This document shows positions 3,218-18,732 of a stretch of DNA of 21,110 nt, in pieces. The notes beneath the pieces were generated by a model. It was not told where the DNA came from and did no database searches. It worked only from the letters and a program-made list of their open reading frames with translations. The stretch is from a virus: positions 1 to 21,110 of IMG/VR virus record IMGVR_UViG_3300009537_000211; one strand, 5' to 3'. The translations under genes and the position numbers were made by a program. Every line of letters starts with the position of its first letter. Position 1 is the stretch's first letter.

Positions 3218-3581
3218 GATTATAACAACAATTCCATTTGGATGGGAAGTGTCTATAGACTGTGAAGGGATGATGATTCCAGTCCCCTTAGAGCAAGAGA
3301 TGCTAAAGAAGGCTAAAGACTATTTAGAAAGTTGTTCCTTACGTGAAGTGGCTGATTGGCTTTCACGTAGTACAGGACGGAAGATTAGCCATATGGGGCT
3401 TAAATACATTAAGACGAATGGTTGGAAGGCTATAGAAGATTTAGGAGATGAAGAAGAGATTAAGTTTACTCGTAATGTAATCGATGTGAATCCAAGTGAA
3501 GAAGCCGCAGAAGAGTTTTCTCCTGCCGATCCTTTAGAATTTGAGCATCACGCTCTTTATAAAACAAACCCAGAGGAATAA
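3210..3581 (+). CDS. Helix-turn-helix protein, possibly terminase-associated
   Basis: This 123-residue protein has a short beta-like N-terminus (GWEVSIDCEGMMIPVP). A predicted helical domain follows at about residues 27-70, with YLESCSLREVADWLSRSTG then KISHMGLKYIKTNG. The pattern 'S-L-R-x-V-A-x-W-L-S-x-x-T-G-x-x-I-S-H-x-G-L' is that of a resolvase-like helix-turn-helix. From memory, a comparable segment occurs at the N-terminus of some marine-phage large terminases. Here it is a separate gene beside terS, while terL carries a lysine-rich extension instead. The C-terminal third is acidic and probably disordered. A role in DNA recognition during packaging or late regulation is inferred. Start and stop are tightly packed: 8-nt overlap upstream, next ATG immediately after the stop. 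Confidence 0.65.
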   Translation: MRKIITTIPFGWEVSIDCEGMMIPVPLEQEMLKKAKDYLESCSLREVADWLSRSTGRKISHMGLKYIKTNGWKAIEDLGDEEEIKFTRNVIDVNPSEEAAEEFSPADPLEFEHHALYKTNPEE

Positions 3582-11758: not shown

Positions 11759-13291
11759 ATGGCAAGTCCTACTGTTTATAAAGATCAACGATATCTTATG
11801 TCGCCTCATTATGCGACTTCGTATGATCTTACTGTTGGCAATGCGCCAACATTCGATTTAGCTGCAAGTAAGTTAAAGATTGGTGGCACAGTTGTTTCCT
11901 CTACTGCTGCCGAGCTTAACTACTTAGATATAACTACACTTGGTACAGGCGCTGCAAGCAAAGCAGTTGTGCTAGATACAGGTGACGACTATACATGGCC
12001 CGCAACAGGCGTTCTCACAGTTTCGCTTCTTGTTGCTAATGCCGATCCCGGCTCCTTTACTGGCCTTGCAGGCTCTTCTGGGGCAGGTGGTGCTGTTAAT
12101 ATTGTAGGCGGTGTTGGTGACAGCGGTGCCGGTGGCGCAGTTGCTCTAACAGGTGGCGCAGGCGATACTACTGCATCTCTTGGTGGCGCAGCTACTGTTA
12201 CCGCAGGTGCTGGTGCTTCAACTGCTGCCGGTGGTGTTGCCTCTTTAATCGGTGGCGCATCAGGCGGTGGTGCTACTGGCGCAGGCGGTGCTGCTGCTGT
12301 TACAGGCGGTGCTGCTGCATCTACTAATGATGCTGGCGGTGCTGCTCAGACTACAGGTGGCGCAGGTGCTGGTACAGGTGCTGGTGGTGCATTTACCGCT
12401 GCTGGTGGTGCAGGTGGTGCTACAGGAACTGGTGGTGCTGCTACTGTCACTTCTGGTGCAGGTGGTGCTACTTCTGGCGCATCGGGAACAGTTACCTTTG
12501 CATCTGGTGTAACCTCTGCTGCTACTACAGGTACTGCTAACAATACTGGCGCAGTTACTTTTACTACTGGTGCTCCTGGAACAGCTACTACAGGTACTGC
12601 TGGTAACTCTGGTACTCTTACGATCTCTACTGCCGCTGGTGGTGAGGCCTCTGGAGCAGCAGGTACAGGTGGCGATGCTGGGGCTCTTAATATTACTGGT
12701 GGTGTTGGTGGTGCTTCAACTGCTGATGGTGGCGCTGATGACGAAGTTGCTGGTATTGGTGGTGACATTCTTATTACTGCTGGTGCTGGCGGAGCACTTC
12801 ACGCTTCCGCATCGACAGTTAGTACAGCCCGTGGTGGTAATATTACACTAACTCCGGGTGTCGCTGGTGCTGCTGCTTCTGGTACTCTTGCAGATGACGG
12901 TACGATTAAGCTAATGCGTACTGCATCTCTTCCTGTTCTAACACATCAGCCAGCTTCTCAAACTGCAACCGATACTGCTACACTAACAGTAGCACAATTA
13001 CTTGGCGGTATTTTAGAAGTTACTCCTACTGCTGCTGCTGCGCTTACTATGCCAACAGGTACTGCTTTAACAGCAGCATTTACTGGGCTAGTTGCTGGTG
13101 ACAGCTTTGATCTATCTGTTATCAACCTATCAGCAGGTGCTACTAATATTATTACTTGGACAGCAAGTGTTGATATTACTTTAGTTGGTGATGGACGTAT
13201 TGAAGAAAACGATACTGAGAGCCCTTCATCCGCTATGTTTAGGTTAAAGTGGGTTTCAGGTAATACTTGGATTTGCTACCGTATAGCATAG
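11759..13291 (+). CDS. Glycine-repeat tail fibre or adhesin-like protein (510 residues)
   Basis: Residues 1-100 contain a motif frequent in phage fibre proteins: KLKIGGTVVSSTAAELNYLD. It is followed by GTGAASKAVVLDTGDDY. Residues about 103-375 are a long repeat of Gly, Ala, Thr and Ser, with units such as GGAATVTAGAG, TGGAGAGTGAGGA and ITGGVGG. This could fold as a polyglycine sheet or beta-solenoid like known Gly-rich fibre adhesins. Residues about 390-510 form a beta-rich C-terminal head ending WICYRIA. Gly is coded mostly by GGT/GGC, whereas terL next door favours GGA, consistent with high expression and/or repeat expansion. The SD AAAGGA sits 8 nt upstream. Host binding is the likely role, with repeat tracts giving variable specificity. 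Other-strand and other-frame ORFs here are shadows. Confidence 0.75.
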   Translation: MASPTVYKDQRYLMSPHYATSYDLTVGNAPTFDLAASKLKIGGTVVSSTAAELNYLDITTLGTGAASKAVVLDTGDDYTWPATGVLTVSLLVANADPGSFTGLAGSSGAGGAVNIVGGVGDSGAGGAVALTGGAGDTTASLGGAATVTAGAGASTAAGGVASLIGGASGGGATGAGGAAAVTGGAAASTNDAGGAAQTTGGAGAGTGAGGAFTAAGGAGGATGTGGAATVTSGAGGATSGASGTVTFASGVTSAATTGTANNTGAVTFTTGAPGTATTGTAGNSGTLTISTAAGGEASGAAGTGGDAGALNITGGVGGASTADGGADDEVAGIGGDILITAGAGGALHASASTVSTARGGNITLTPGVAGAAASGTLADDGTIKLMRTASLPVLTHQPASQTATDTATLTVAQLLGGILEVTPTAAAALTMPTGTALTAAFTGLVAGDSFDLSVINLSAGATNIITWTASVDITLVGDGRIEENDTESPSSAMFRLKWVSGNTWICYRIA

Positions 13292-15027: not shown

Positions 15028-15300
15028 ATGCCAGATATTAAATCTCCACATGGTGCGGAAATGGATTATCGCTATGGTCCTGCTGTCAACATGAATGAGA
15101 AGCGTAAGCAGGGCGACCTGGGTAAAGAAAATACTGCCAAGAGCGGCACAGGTGGCACTGTTGACAAGAGTGTTGTGCGTAATGATCGTGATAACCTAGA
15201 CGTGAATATGGGAAAGAGCGGAACTGGAGATAATAGTCCTTCAGGCCCAATTTTTCCAAAAGGAAAAGACGATAGACTAGATCCTGACTATAGTAAGTAG
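15028..15300 (+). CDS. Small disordered protein between terL and portal
   Basis: This 90-residue hydrophilic protein is rich in Gly, Lys, Asp, Ser and Asn, with no predicted structure. It carries two similar motifs (NTAKSGTGGTVDKS and VNMGKSGTGDNSPSG, sharing KSGTG). The SD AAAGGA is 8 nt before the ATG, in the same leader context (AAAGGAATAAA) as the Gly-rich fibre gene. Small disordered genes in this position are common between terminase and portal genes of marine phages, from memory. No function can be assigned. It might be an accessory packaging or head-internal protein. Confidence 0.65.
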   Translation: MPDIKSPHGAEMDYRYGPAVNMNEKRKQGDLGKENTAKSGTGGTVDKSVVRNDRDNLDVNMGKSGTGDNSPSGPIFPKGKDDRLDPDYSK

Positions 15301-15309
15301 GAATAAGCA

Positions 15310-17409
15310 ATGCCTGATGAAGCTATTGCAAGCGAAGGTGTCTCTTTAATAGACAGCAAAAAACAAGAAGATGAGTTTATCGGAGTTGTTTCTGCTGTTA
15401 AACAAAGATTTGAGAGGGCTGAAACTGCACGATGGGCTGATGAGCAGAGATGGATTAAGGCCTATAGAAACTATCGAGGCGAATATGGCCCCGATATGCA
15501 GTTTAGAAAAGATGAGAAATCTCGCGTATTTGTTAAGATAACTAAAACAAAGGTAATAGCTGCCTATGGACAACTTTTGGAAGTCCTATTCGGTAAAAAT
15601 AAATTTCCTATTTCTATCGAACATACTCCTGTACCAGAAGGTATTTCAGAATATGCTCATGCTGATGTTAGTACAGAGCAACCTATGGCGGAAACAATTT
15701 CCCAGAATTTTGGATTTCCTGGAGACGGGAAAAACTTACCACCTGGAGCTATTAGCCCAGTAGGGGAATTAGGAGGAGGATTGAAAGAAGCAGGTTTTGT
15801 AGATGGTCCTGCTCCTGAAACAACTAACTTTATACAAATACATCCAGCAGCAAAAGCTGCTAAGAAACTAGAAAAAGTTATCCATGACCAAATAGAAGCT
15901 AGTGACGGAACTACTGCACTGCGTAGTACAGTTTTTGAACAAGTGTTGCTAGGATCAGGCGTGTTAAAAGGGCCATTCAATATCGAAAAAACGGTTAATT
16001 TTTGGTCTAAAAATGAGGATGGAAAAAGAGAATATACTCCTATTTATAAAACAGCGCCTAAAATAAGCAATACATGCCTGTTCAGTTTCTATCCCGATCC
16101 TGAAGCAACCACTTTAGAAGATGCTGAATATGTTATTGAATTACACAAAATGAGTAAATCTCAGTTAAGACGTTTAATGAAACGTCCCTTCTTTAGGAAA
16201 GAAGCTATTACAGAGTGTATTGCACAGGGACCGAACTGGACAGATAAGAATTACGAATCTTATCTTCAAGATGCTACTAAGGATAGCGGAACATCTGAAA
16301 GATTTGCAGTGTTAGAATATTGGGGGACCGTAGATAAGGATATGGCCCAAGCAGCAGGTCTGAAGATAGAAGAAGATATGGATGAGATGGACGAGATTGA
16401 GATTAATGCTTGGATTTGCGGAAATGAAATTTTAAGATTAGTCGCTAATCCCTTCACTCCTACTAGAATACCTTATAACGTTGTTCCGTATGAAGTTAAT
16501 CCTTATAGTATGTTCGGAATAGGTGTTCCAGAGGATATGGATGATGCTCAGATGGTTATGAACGGCCATGTAAGAATGGCTATTGATAACCTAGCACTTT
16601 CTGGTAACTTAGTTTTTGATATCGATGAAACGGCTTTAGTAGCCGGACAGAGTATGGATGTCTTTCCGGGAAAGATCTTCAGGCGTCAAGGAGGTATTTC
16701 AGGACAAGCTATTTATGGTTTGAAATTCCCTAATACGGCTTCAGAGAACTTAGAGATGTTCAGAGTATTTAGGCAATTCGCTGATGAGGAAACAGGTATT
16801 CCTTCTTTCTCGCATGGACAAACAGGCGTACAAGGTACAGGAAGAACAGCTTCAGGCATCTCAATGTTAATGGGAGCCGCTGCTCTTAGTATTAAAACAG
16901 TTATCAGAAACGTAGATAACTTCCTATTACGTCCTCTAGGAGAAAATTACTTCAATTGGAATATGCAATTTAATGAGGATGACGATTTAGAGTTTAGAGG
17001 AGATCTGGAAATTAAAGCTAGAGGCACTTCTGCCCTAGTCCAGAAAGAGGTCAGGTCGCAGAGATTGCTCATGTTCTTTAATGTTGGCGCTAATCCTGCT
17101 GTTGCTCCTCTTATTAGATGGACTACTCTTCTTGAAGAACTAGCAGAGAGTTTAGAAATTGATCCAGAAAAGATTCTAAATAGTCCAGAAGAAGCTAAAC
17201 TAATGGCAAAACTAATAGGAATAGTAAATGCTCAGCAAGGAAATGGCAAACAAACTCAGTCCTCTAACGGGGAATCGTCCGGCATGGGAGGGATTTCTAG
17301 CGTACCTGGAGGAGCAGACCCAACAAACGCATCGGGAGTTGGTGACGGTTTCATCGGAACTGGAGTTGCGCCGGTGCCAGGGGAAAGCGGCTTTTCTGCG
17401 AACTCTTAA
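15310..17409 (+). CDS. Portal protein
   Basis: This 699-residue protein has the size, position (after terL, before scaffold and capsid) and sequence texture of a podovirus- or siphovirus-type portal, which forms the dodecameric ring through which DNA enters. The N-terminal helix RFERAETARWADEQRWIKAYRNYRG (about residues 33-57) and the following FVKITKTKVIAAYGQLLEVLFG are typical of the portal clip/wing region. Later come helical and beta segments (VPYEVNPYSMFGIGVPEDM, MVMNGHVRMAIDNLA, GRTASGISMLM). The last 60 residues are a Gly/Ser/Pro-rich tail (SSGMGGISSVPGG...FSANS), common in such portals. That tail is encoded by DNA that also encodes a second protein in another frame (17228-17458). The SD TAGGAA lies just before the ATG. 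Assignment is from memory of the family. Confidence 0.85.
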   Translation: MPDEAIASEGVSLIDSKKQEDEFIGVVSAVKQRFERAETARWADEQRWIKAYRNYRGEYGPDMQFRKDEKSRVFVKITKTKVIAAYGQLLEVLFGKNKFPISIEHTPVPEGISEYAHADVSTEQPMAETISQNFGFPGDGKNLPPGAISPVGELGGGLKEAGFVDGPAPETTNFIQIHPAAKAAKKLEKVIHDQIEASDGTTALRSTVFEQVLLGSGVLKGPFNIEKTVNFWSKNEDGKREYTPIYKTAPKISNTCLFSFYPDPEATTLEDAEYVIELHKMSKSQLRRLMKRPFFRKEAITECIAQGPNWTDKNYESYLQDATKDSGTSERFAVLEYWGTVDKDMAQAAGLKIEEDMDEMDEIEINAWICGNEILRLVANPFTPTRIPYNVVPYEVNPYSMFGIGVPEDMDDAQMVMNGHVRMAIDNLALSGNLVFDIDETALVAGQSMDVFPGKIFRRQGGISGQAIYGLKFPNTASENLEMFRVFRQFADEETGIPSFSHGQTGVQGTGRTASGISMLMGAAALSIKTVIRNVDNFLLRPLGENYFNWNMQFNEDDDLEFRGDLEIKARGTSALVQKEVRSQRLLMFFNVGANPAVAPLIRWTTLLEELAESLEIDPEKILNSPEEAKLMAKLIGIVNAQQGNGKQTQSSNGESSGMGGISSVPGGADPTNASGVGDGFIGTGVAPVPGESGFSANS

Positions 17410-17458
17410 AGATTTAAAGATAATGGTAGATACCAAGAGAAATGAAAAGGACAGTTAA
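17228..17458 (+). CDS. Small helical head-module protein overlapping the portal 3' end
   Basis: This 76-residue frame starts inside the portal gene (182-nt overlap) and ends 49 nt past the portal stop. It has its own AGGA (17217-17220) 7 nt before the ATG, and its stop is fused to the next start (TAATG at 17456-17460). The sequence is strongly helical and charged: AWEGFLAYLEEQTQQTHREL, then ELELRRCQGKAAFLRTLKDLKIM. I remember the same pattern (W..LL.YL......E...A.....L.R.QG....LR.LK.L) in small proteins coded just after the portal in other tailed phages. It is therefore unlikely to be a shadow, although it lies largely in portal DNA. The role is unknown, perhaps head completion or portal assembly. 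Confidence 0.7.
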   Translation: MLSKEMANKLSPLTGNRPAWEGFLAYLEEQTQQTHRELVTVSSELELRRCQGKAAFLRTLKDLKIMVDTKRNEKDS

Positions 17459-18375
17459 TGCCACAAGAACAGCAATATAGACTGAGGCCGTTAGTCACTC
17501 CTCAGCTTCCTACTTCAGACGAACCTAGGCTTACGTTTGAACAGGTTAGTGCAGGCCGTCCTAAACTCCCTGAAGTAGGGCTAGGAACTCCCGGTAGCGG
17601 TATCGGTCTTCCTGAATTACCGTCTCCTATTCCCGGAGAAGGAGGAATAGGCAGCAGACGTGGAAGTGAGGCTGATACTACTGGTGGACCAGGAAGTGCA
17701 GGAGATGCTGCTAGGGAAGGTGCGGACTTGTCTAATGCATCTTTAGCAACTTTTCCAGACATTGCAGATATGGATACGGTAACACGAGGTATTATGTTAG
17801 CTGCTCCTGGAAGTCTTTTAGGTACATTTTTAAGCGAGATATTTGGTCCTGTAGGTGTAAACGCATCTCCTGCTCCGTCTATAGGAGGAAAGTTTCCTGG
17901 AAGAACATTTGAAGAATCGCAAGCTATTAGAAACCAGTTTAAAGACTTACAAAGTTTAGCTAGTAAGATGTCTAAAACTTCTAATGAAAAAACTTCAGGA
18001 CTGCTTAGTAGTAAAAGCGCTAAGATACATTCTGTTGCTCTTAATAATAGATTTAATAGAACAATTCAGGAAAAAACAGGAATAACTGCTGCTACGCCAA
18101 GCAAAGCACCATCAGGGTTTGGTAGAAACAGACCAGGTGTAGGAGTAGGTAACAGACAAGGTGTAGGAGTAGGTACAGGGGCTAATTCGTTAAGTACAGG
18201 ACCTGCTGGACCTGCTATAAATAGACAAAGAGGAGCAGGTAACAAAACAGGTGTAGAAGTAGGTAAAGAAGCCCCTGCGGTAGGTAGCGGCCTAATAGGA
18301 AGACCTGATAGAGACAGACAAGGTAGAGGACTAATAGGGCCTGATAGAAGCAGACAAGGTGGAGGACTAAGGTAA
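17458..18375 (+). CDS. Gly-rich repeat protein of the head module (305 residues)
   Basis: The protein has a proline/glycine-rich, probably disordered N-terminus (1-100). A helical/hydrophobic stretch follows (TVTRGIMLAAPGSLLGTFLSEIFG, about 107-130), then a basic helical region (QFKDLQSLASKMSK...). The C-terminus is a repetitive basic Gly/Arg tail (about 215-305) with repeats NRPGVGVG, NRQGVGVG and NKTGVEVG, and GLIGRPDRDRQGRGLIGPDRSRQGGG. Its position between portal and scaffold, the hydrophobic segment and the disordered basic tail suggest a minor capsid, internal or ejection protein. The positively charged tail might contact DNA. This is inference, and I recognise no family. The start is coupled to the preceding gene by TAATG. 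Confidence 0.68.
   Translation: MPQEQQYRLRPLVTPQLPTSDEPRLTFEQVSAGRPKLPEVGLGTPGSGIGLPELPSPIPGEGGIGSRRGSEADTTGGPGSAGDAAREGADLSNASLATFPDIADMDTVTRGIMLAAPGSLLGTFLSEIFGPVGVNASPAPSIGGKFPGRTFEESQAIRNQFKDLQSLASKMSKTSNEKTSGLLSSKSAKIHSVALNNRFNRTIQEKTGITAATPSKAPSGFGRNRPGVGVGNRQGVGVGTGANSLSTGPAGPAINRQRGAGNKTGVEVGKEAPAVGSGLIGRPDRDRQGRGLIGPDRSRQGGGLR
18127..18264 (+). repeat. 24-bp coding repeats
   Basis: A 24-bp unit beginning AACAGACCAGGTGTAGGAGT (18127-18150) is followed in tandem by a copy differing at one base (18151-18174). A third copy with several changes lies at 18241-18264. They encode NRPGVGVG, NRQGVGVG and NKTGVEVG. The near-identity of the first two points to recent slippage or duplication. 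Confidence 0.8.
18290..18371 (+). repeat. Imperfect coding repeat at the gene's 3' end
   Basis: A unit of about 36-40 bp beginning CTAATAGG and ending in GACAAGGT[AG]GAGGA occurs about twice, followed by a truncated third start CTAAGG. It encodes LIGRPDRDRQGRG and LIGPDRSRQGGG, then LR. It is another sign of expansion in the disordered C-terminal tail. Confidence 0.7.
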
Positions 18376-18393
18376 ATGAGGCGGGAGAGTATA

Positions 18394-18732
18394 ATGCCAG
18401 AGAATACAGACGAGCTATCACAAGGGCTTTCACAGCTTGCTCCAGAAGCAAAGCAGATTATTTCACAAGGCCTTGGACAGCTAGGACAAGCTATGCAAGC
18501 GTTTGTCGAAGAAGTAAATACCGTAACAAACGGACAAGGAGAGGCAGTATTAGAACTCTTCTTAAAAAAAGATGAAAATGGAATGAACATACCGGAAGAA
18601 GCGGTACGTGTCATAGGTTCAGATAAGATTAAGAAAATGATAGAATCGGCCCTAATGCCTGATGAAAGTGGCGATCAGGCTCCAGCAGGATTAGCTGCAA
18701 GGCCCACTGCCCCTGGTACTTTGCCAGGATAG
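18394..18732 (+). CDS. Small helical head-module protein
   Basis: This 112-residue protein starts MPENTDELSQGLSQLAPEAK and is helical. It has glutamine/glycine repeats (QGLSQLAPEAKQIISQGLG) followed by a helix with charged residues and a Pro/Ala-rich C-terminal tail (APAGLAARPTAPGTLPG). I chose the ATG at 18394 because GGGAG (18383-18387) is 6 nt upstream. The in-frame ATG at 18376 directly after the previous stop is the alternative and would add MRRESI. The repeated QG.L.QL pattern predicts an amphipathic helix bundle. Function is unknown. It sits just before the scaffold gene, so capsid assembly is plausible. Confidence 0.7.
   Translation: MPENTDELSQGLSQLAPEAKQIISQGLGQLGQAMQAFVEEVNTVTNGQGEAVLELFLKKDENGMNIPEEAVRVIGSDKIKKMIESALMPDESGDQAPAGLAARPTAPGTLPG

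Follow-up and report, generated by a model that had tools for sequence, protein, structure and literature searches.

Two-component spanin genes of the Rz/Rz1 type are found in embedded, overlapped, and separated architectures, in which the partners occupy different reading frames and are often misannotated (PMC6139136). In three mixed spanin families, the upstream partner has a divergent sequence where the genes overlap (PMC6139136). These genes are the closest precedent for the pair described here, as one gene pair likewise occurs in all of these forms. Spanins, however, are lysis proteins of unrelated sequence, whereas the portal gene and the small gene considered here keep both of their products homologous in both arrangements.

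By homology, the nearest described systems are the small genes that follow the portal gene in HMO-2011-type phages (gp50 in HMO-2011), Rhizobium phages, Vibrio phage CHOED, and Aeromonas phage MQM1. They encode a homologous helical protein in the same position, but overlap the portal gene by about 0 to 75 nt as opposed to 182 nt here, and the conserved portal motif lies on DNA separate from the small gene. The same near-complete +1 overlap, with the portal [P/A]G coincident with the QG of the small protein, occurs in HTVC033P, HTVC115P, HTVC103P, and HTVC104P. These phages differ from the present locus in that their small gene is unannotated and their portals are 49 to 53% identical to the one studied here (52-53% for HTVC115P and HTVC033P, about 49% for HTVC103P and HTVC104P). 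A literature search that left most subscription papers outside its reach returned no paper pairing "HMO-2011" with "overlapping genes", and the word "overlap" is absent from the main paper on HMO-2011-type phages (PMC9038755).

The sequence analyzed is a virus record of 21,110 bases (hereafter the window), whose relevant features are collected in Table 1. The initial annotation had described an overlap between the 3' end of the portal gene and a 76-residue frame shifted by +1, together with a stop/start junction to the next gene, and all of these positions proved correct.

Table 1. Features of the portal/small gene locus in the window
Feature	Position	Strand	Details and basis
Portal protein gene	15310-17409	+	699 aa; phrog_332 1.5e-70, SU10_portal PF23899 6.4e-28
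Small helical-hairpin gene (predicted fold)	17228-17458	+	76 aa, frame +1 relative to portal; homologs, profile tests, model
Dual-coding overlap	17228-17409	+	182 nt, codes portal residues 640-699; drop in portal dS
AGGA, Shine-Dalgarno-like	17217-17220	+	7-nt spacer to the small-gene ATG; same spacing in many relatives
Conserved portal tail motif DPTNASGVGDGFIGTGVAPVPGESGFSAN	17320-17406	+	DNA shared with small-protein residues QTQQTHRELVTVSSELELRRCQGKAAFLRTL; alignments
TAATG stop/start junction between small gene and next gene (17458-18375)	17456-17460	+	Sequence

Domain matches place the portal protein in the SU10/P22 type. It is about 48-53% identical to the portals of HMO-2011-type phages, a group likeness that is known here from the portal alone. 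The product of the gene downstream of the small gene is a 305-aa protein of low complexity that has GVGVG-type repeats and lacks a convincing family match. Between terL and the portal gene lies an ORF (15028-15300) for a low-complexity protein of 90 aa; this gap holds several small genes in the HTVC phages and none in the HMO-2011, CRP, and CHOED-like phages that were read. Two long antisense ORFs on the minus strand (18066-18614 and 12346-12768) lie opposite Gly/Pro/Ala-rich genes and are probably an outcome of codon composition.

The 76-residue frame had been described as a charged helical protein of a kind that follows portals, and both its homologs and its model bear this out. In tblastn searches, the frame matched HMO-2011 (E 1e-6) and HTVC033P (6e-6) and, weakly, CRP-345 and CRP-207, in every case at the 3' end of the portal gene. 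All 24 phages whose portal ends were read carry the small gene. When portal searches of viral contigs were pooled with named phages, 293 deduplicated loci were obtained, in 290 of which the small gene adjoins or lies over the portal 3' end; these comprise HMO-2011-type podophages and their relatives. In a wider screen of 419 portal loci, 415 had a single small-gene match. By homology and position, the frame thus belongs to the family of small genes behind HMO-2011-type portals, in whose alignment a Gln-Gly pair is invariant. Homologs outside the long overlap, which would be missing if the frame existed only as part of a portal gene, are present in phiM6, CHOED, CRP-13, and Aeromonas phages. 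Direct searches of the viral contigs with the window's own proteins did not find close relatives, and Pfam and PHROG provide no convincing family for the small protein (best PHROG E value 0.0016, for one member; best Pfam E value 0.1, for the window's protein).

The structure model of the small protein (pLDDT 94.6) comprises helices at residues 4-15, 17-40, 44-61, and 63-71, and the protein is confidently predicted to be a helical hairpin. The nearest folds in the PDB are the helical hairpins of the PscE/EscE chaperones (Z about 7, as is common among helical bundles); being only middling hairpin matches, they were dropped as a pointer to function. The top viral predictions in BFVD are phage proteins of 70-76 aa, mostly uncharacterized. 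Judging from gene position and fold class only, a role in the assembly of the head or portal is probable for the small protein.

Annotation of this gene is uneven. It is present but unannotated in HTVC033P, HTVC103P, HTVC104P, HTVC115P, CRP-345, CRP-1, and Aeromonas phage 1233. In HMO-2011, gp50 is annotated from position 3540 of the locus (L001), while homology extends back to an ATG at 3501, so that the annotation looks 39 nt too short (3501-3539). A small-gene relative (L024, 3164-3379) also occurs in Pseudomonas phage Rollin, at a portal identity of only about 27%; it overlaps the portal gene by 77 nt and lacks the shared portal motif.

On the portal side, the overlap coincides with a C-terminal tail that is predicted to be disordered, as had been supposed: in the portal model, pLDDT falls below 50 for residues 637-699 and lies between 25 and 39 over residues 640-699. 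The overlap is richer in GC than the remaining portal gene (54% vs 39%), as the initial annotation had noted. Its reading of this enrichment as a sign of double constraint was rejected, since the excess over the portal core is +0.14 in tails of relatives without overlap and +0.15 in tails with it; the GC content reflects a Gly/Pro/Ala-rich tail.

Such a tail could leave a 76-codon frame open as a mere by-product with no gene in it, and when the window's portal is recoded synonymously, the +1 frame does indeed stay open in 32% of cases. Across relatives, however, the frame is open in all 83 overlap-type sequences, whereas the same recoding would leave it open with a per-sequence probability of 0.20 on average. 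Its content was compared with a small-gene profile that was built solely from phages lacking the long overlap and is therefore independent of it. The window's frame scores 47.8 bits with this profile, whereas 50 synonymous portal recodings reach at most 20.3 bits; among overlap-type relatives, the real frames average 37.3 bits and the recodings 3.2 bits (at most 24.4). Together with the standalone homologs in phages that lack the overlap and the confidently predicted fold, these scores make the by-product explanation extremely unlikely.

Synonymous rates tell the same story from the portal side. In 91 overlap-type pairs, portal dS is 0.955 in the core and 0.636 in the 60 codons that lead up to the overlap, and it reaches 0.147 within it, six-fold below the core; suppression of the synonymous rate had been proposed as a check on the overlap. 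In portal tails without overlap, the drop is mild (0.72 vs 1.37 and 0.85 vs 1.26). The small frame shows the matching pattern in the same 91 pairs, with a pS of 0.251 where it lies within the portal gene and 0.557 past the portal stop. That both frames of the overlap encode real, conserved proteins under selection, as first suggested for this locus, is confirmed at the level of sequence comparison. In keeping both frames open and in suppressing synonymous change, the pair behaves as out-of-frame, overprinted genes do.

Neither protein dictates the sequence of the other. Resampling the codons of the small gene reduced the score of the portal-tail profile from 65.8 to 4.8 bits, and resampling those of the portal reduced the score of the small-gene profile from 83.4 to 14.8 bits. 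The IGTG of the portal motif faces the turn that joins the two long helices of the small protein (residues 41-43), along with the first part of the helix that follows. At small-protein residues 41, 43, and 44, which face IGTG, overlapping phages have A, S, and E with 96% conservation, while other phages vary there, a pattern that is, as far as alignments can tell, one of reciprocal constraint. The shared stretch is best read as encoding two unrelated conserved proteins, a putatively disordered portal tail in frame 0 and a predicted standalone two-helix protein in frame +1.

With regard to expression, the small protein is most likely translated independently, from the ATG at 17228, which is directly preceded by an in-frame TAA and, slightly further upstream, by the SD-like AGGA. 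The SD that had been ascribed to the frame is thus present as a sequence but is of moderate strength (anti-SD duplex of -4.2 kcal/mol in the window); start sites of the long-overlap class average -5.5 kcal/mol, compared with -3.0 kcal/mol at random portal positions. The TAATG junction may couple the small gene to the next gene, and independent initiation with such coupling is the best-supported route of expression as judged from these signals. A frame overlap of 150-220 nt across the group would also tolerate a ribosomal frameshift, through which the small frame could be expressed mainly as a fusion to the portal. The conserved ATG with its SD-like site, the position of the window's ATG immediately behind a stop, and the relatives in which the gene stands alone all speak against such a fusion, which we regard as very improbable.

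Comparison of overlap lengths among related phages, which had also been proposed, revealed three discrete classes of about 0, 50-80, and 150-220 nt, with none between 80 and 140 nt. One apparent overlap of 152 nt (L131) was rejected because the profile start had been misplaced. The long overlap is common to about 135 deduplicated loci, including the pelagiphages HTVC033P, HTVC103P, HTVC104P, and HTVC115P. In all 129 assessable loci of this class, the first base of the small gene's QG codon lies exactly 1 nt downstream of the first base of the portal [P/A] codon (P-G-E motif). Loci of the 50-80-nt class show a corresponding distance of 133-205 nt, always in the same frame, and their small gene is displaced in frame with a mode of 174 nt beyond the coincident position. 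The HMO-2011, CRP, and rhizobium phages have kept the portal motif, while their small gene is homologous but lies downstream, on different DNA.

The portal tails of these displaced phages still resemble those of the overlapping ones. The overlap-type tail profile scores a mean of 39.5 bits in the 50-80-nt class (shuffled sequences at most 8.4) and 20.1 bits in sister phages with near-zero overlap (shuffled sequences at most 10.1), although some sister-clade tails match it weakly and a few score near zero, down to -0.8 bits. Stops in the +1 frame of relatives that keep the portal tail had been named as evidence that would count against the small gene. Such stops do close this frame in the HMO-2011/CRP tails read as examples, but the small gene itself is intact downstream, so the stops do not refute it and instead point to an overlap that was undone. 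Beyond chance, no residual small-frame signal was found in the portal tails of the displaced clade (mean percentiles 0.56-0.57), and none of the 419 loci screened carries two copies of the small gene. In the 50-80-nt class, the small gene gave a portal-frame signal (percentile 0.98) that was discarded as evidence, since the stretch concerned is partly still portal-coding.

How the two arrangements are related depends on which of them came first. If the overlap came first, a single duplication or re-acquisition of the small gene explains the separate motif and gene in the sister clade; with the opposite order, evolution would have had to re-create one of these two independent sequences over the other. 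The simpler path favors an ancestral overlap that was later undone, and the direction from overlapping to separate is inferred on this ground. Trees of the portal core, in which the sister HMO-2011/CRP clade is placed within the overlapping phages, lean toward undoing as well. The overlap would then be an old, inherited feature of the phage lineage that was most likely undone in the HMO-2011/CRP/rhizobium-phage clade when the small gene was duplicated or acquired anew, and the portal tail of that clade may still carry the motif that formerly shared DNA with it.

Dual coding could also be real and the overlap derived, with the portal extended over the small gene, or the genes pushed together, and the motif evolved anew. 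AU tests did not reject all overlapping phages as one clade (p-AU 0.068 with 54 rows and 0.469 with 39 rows), and the spanin literature argues for transitions from separated to overlapped genes (PMC6139136). Moreover, in the distant group of CHOED, MQM1, Slicky01, and relatives, the genes are separate or barely overlapping and the IGTG part of the motif is absent. Against this order stands the observation that HMO-2011/CRP tails contain the whole motif even though motif and small gene are on different DNA, as the motif would have to re-evolve over a small protein that by itself supplies almost none of it. We consider a derived overlap unlikely as a general account, but for the distant step from CHOED-like to overlapping phages it is fully possible. 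CHOED-like portal tails average 6.9 bits with the overlap-type profile, near the shuffled range, which together with their separate genes fits the extension of a portal over an existing gene. The initial annotation had suggested such an extension; as the first origin of the overlap it is possible, whereas a local event in this phage is at odds with the many loci that share the arrangement.

Taken as a whole, an account in which two proteins are encoded by the same DNA, the small one is translated from its own start, and an old inherited overlap was later undone in a sister clade appears likely to us. Its more specific part, namely that an ancestral overlap in the head module was resolved by duplication and that the HMO-2011-type portal tail keeps a motif that once shared DNA, is moderately probable.

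The long-overlap group consists of aquatic phages whose annotations mostly lack the small gene, and the analysis thus adds a conserved gene that was missed in cultured pelagiphages and other aquatic phages. As the same two proteins occur on shared and on separate DNA, the locus represents a natural experiment for measuring directly what an overlap costs and how each protein constrains the other. Should the duplication route hold, the sister clade would provide a case in which an overlap was resolved, a step that is mostly just assumed, and would thereby document an escape from overprinting within an essential head module.
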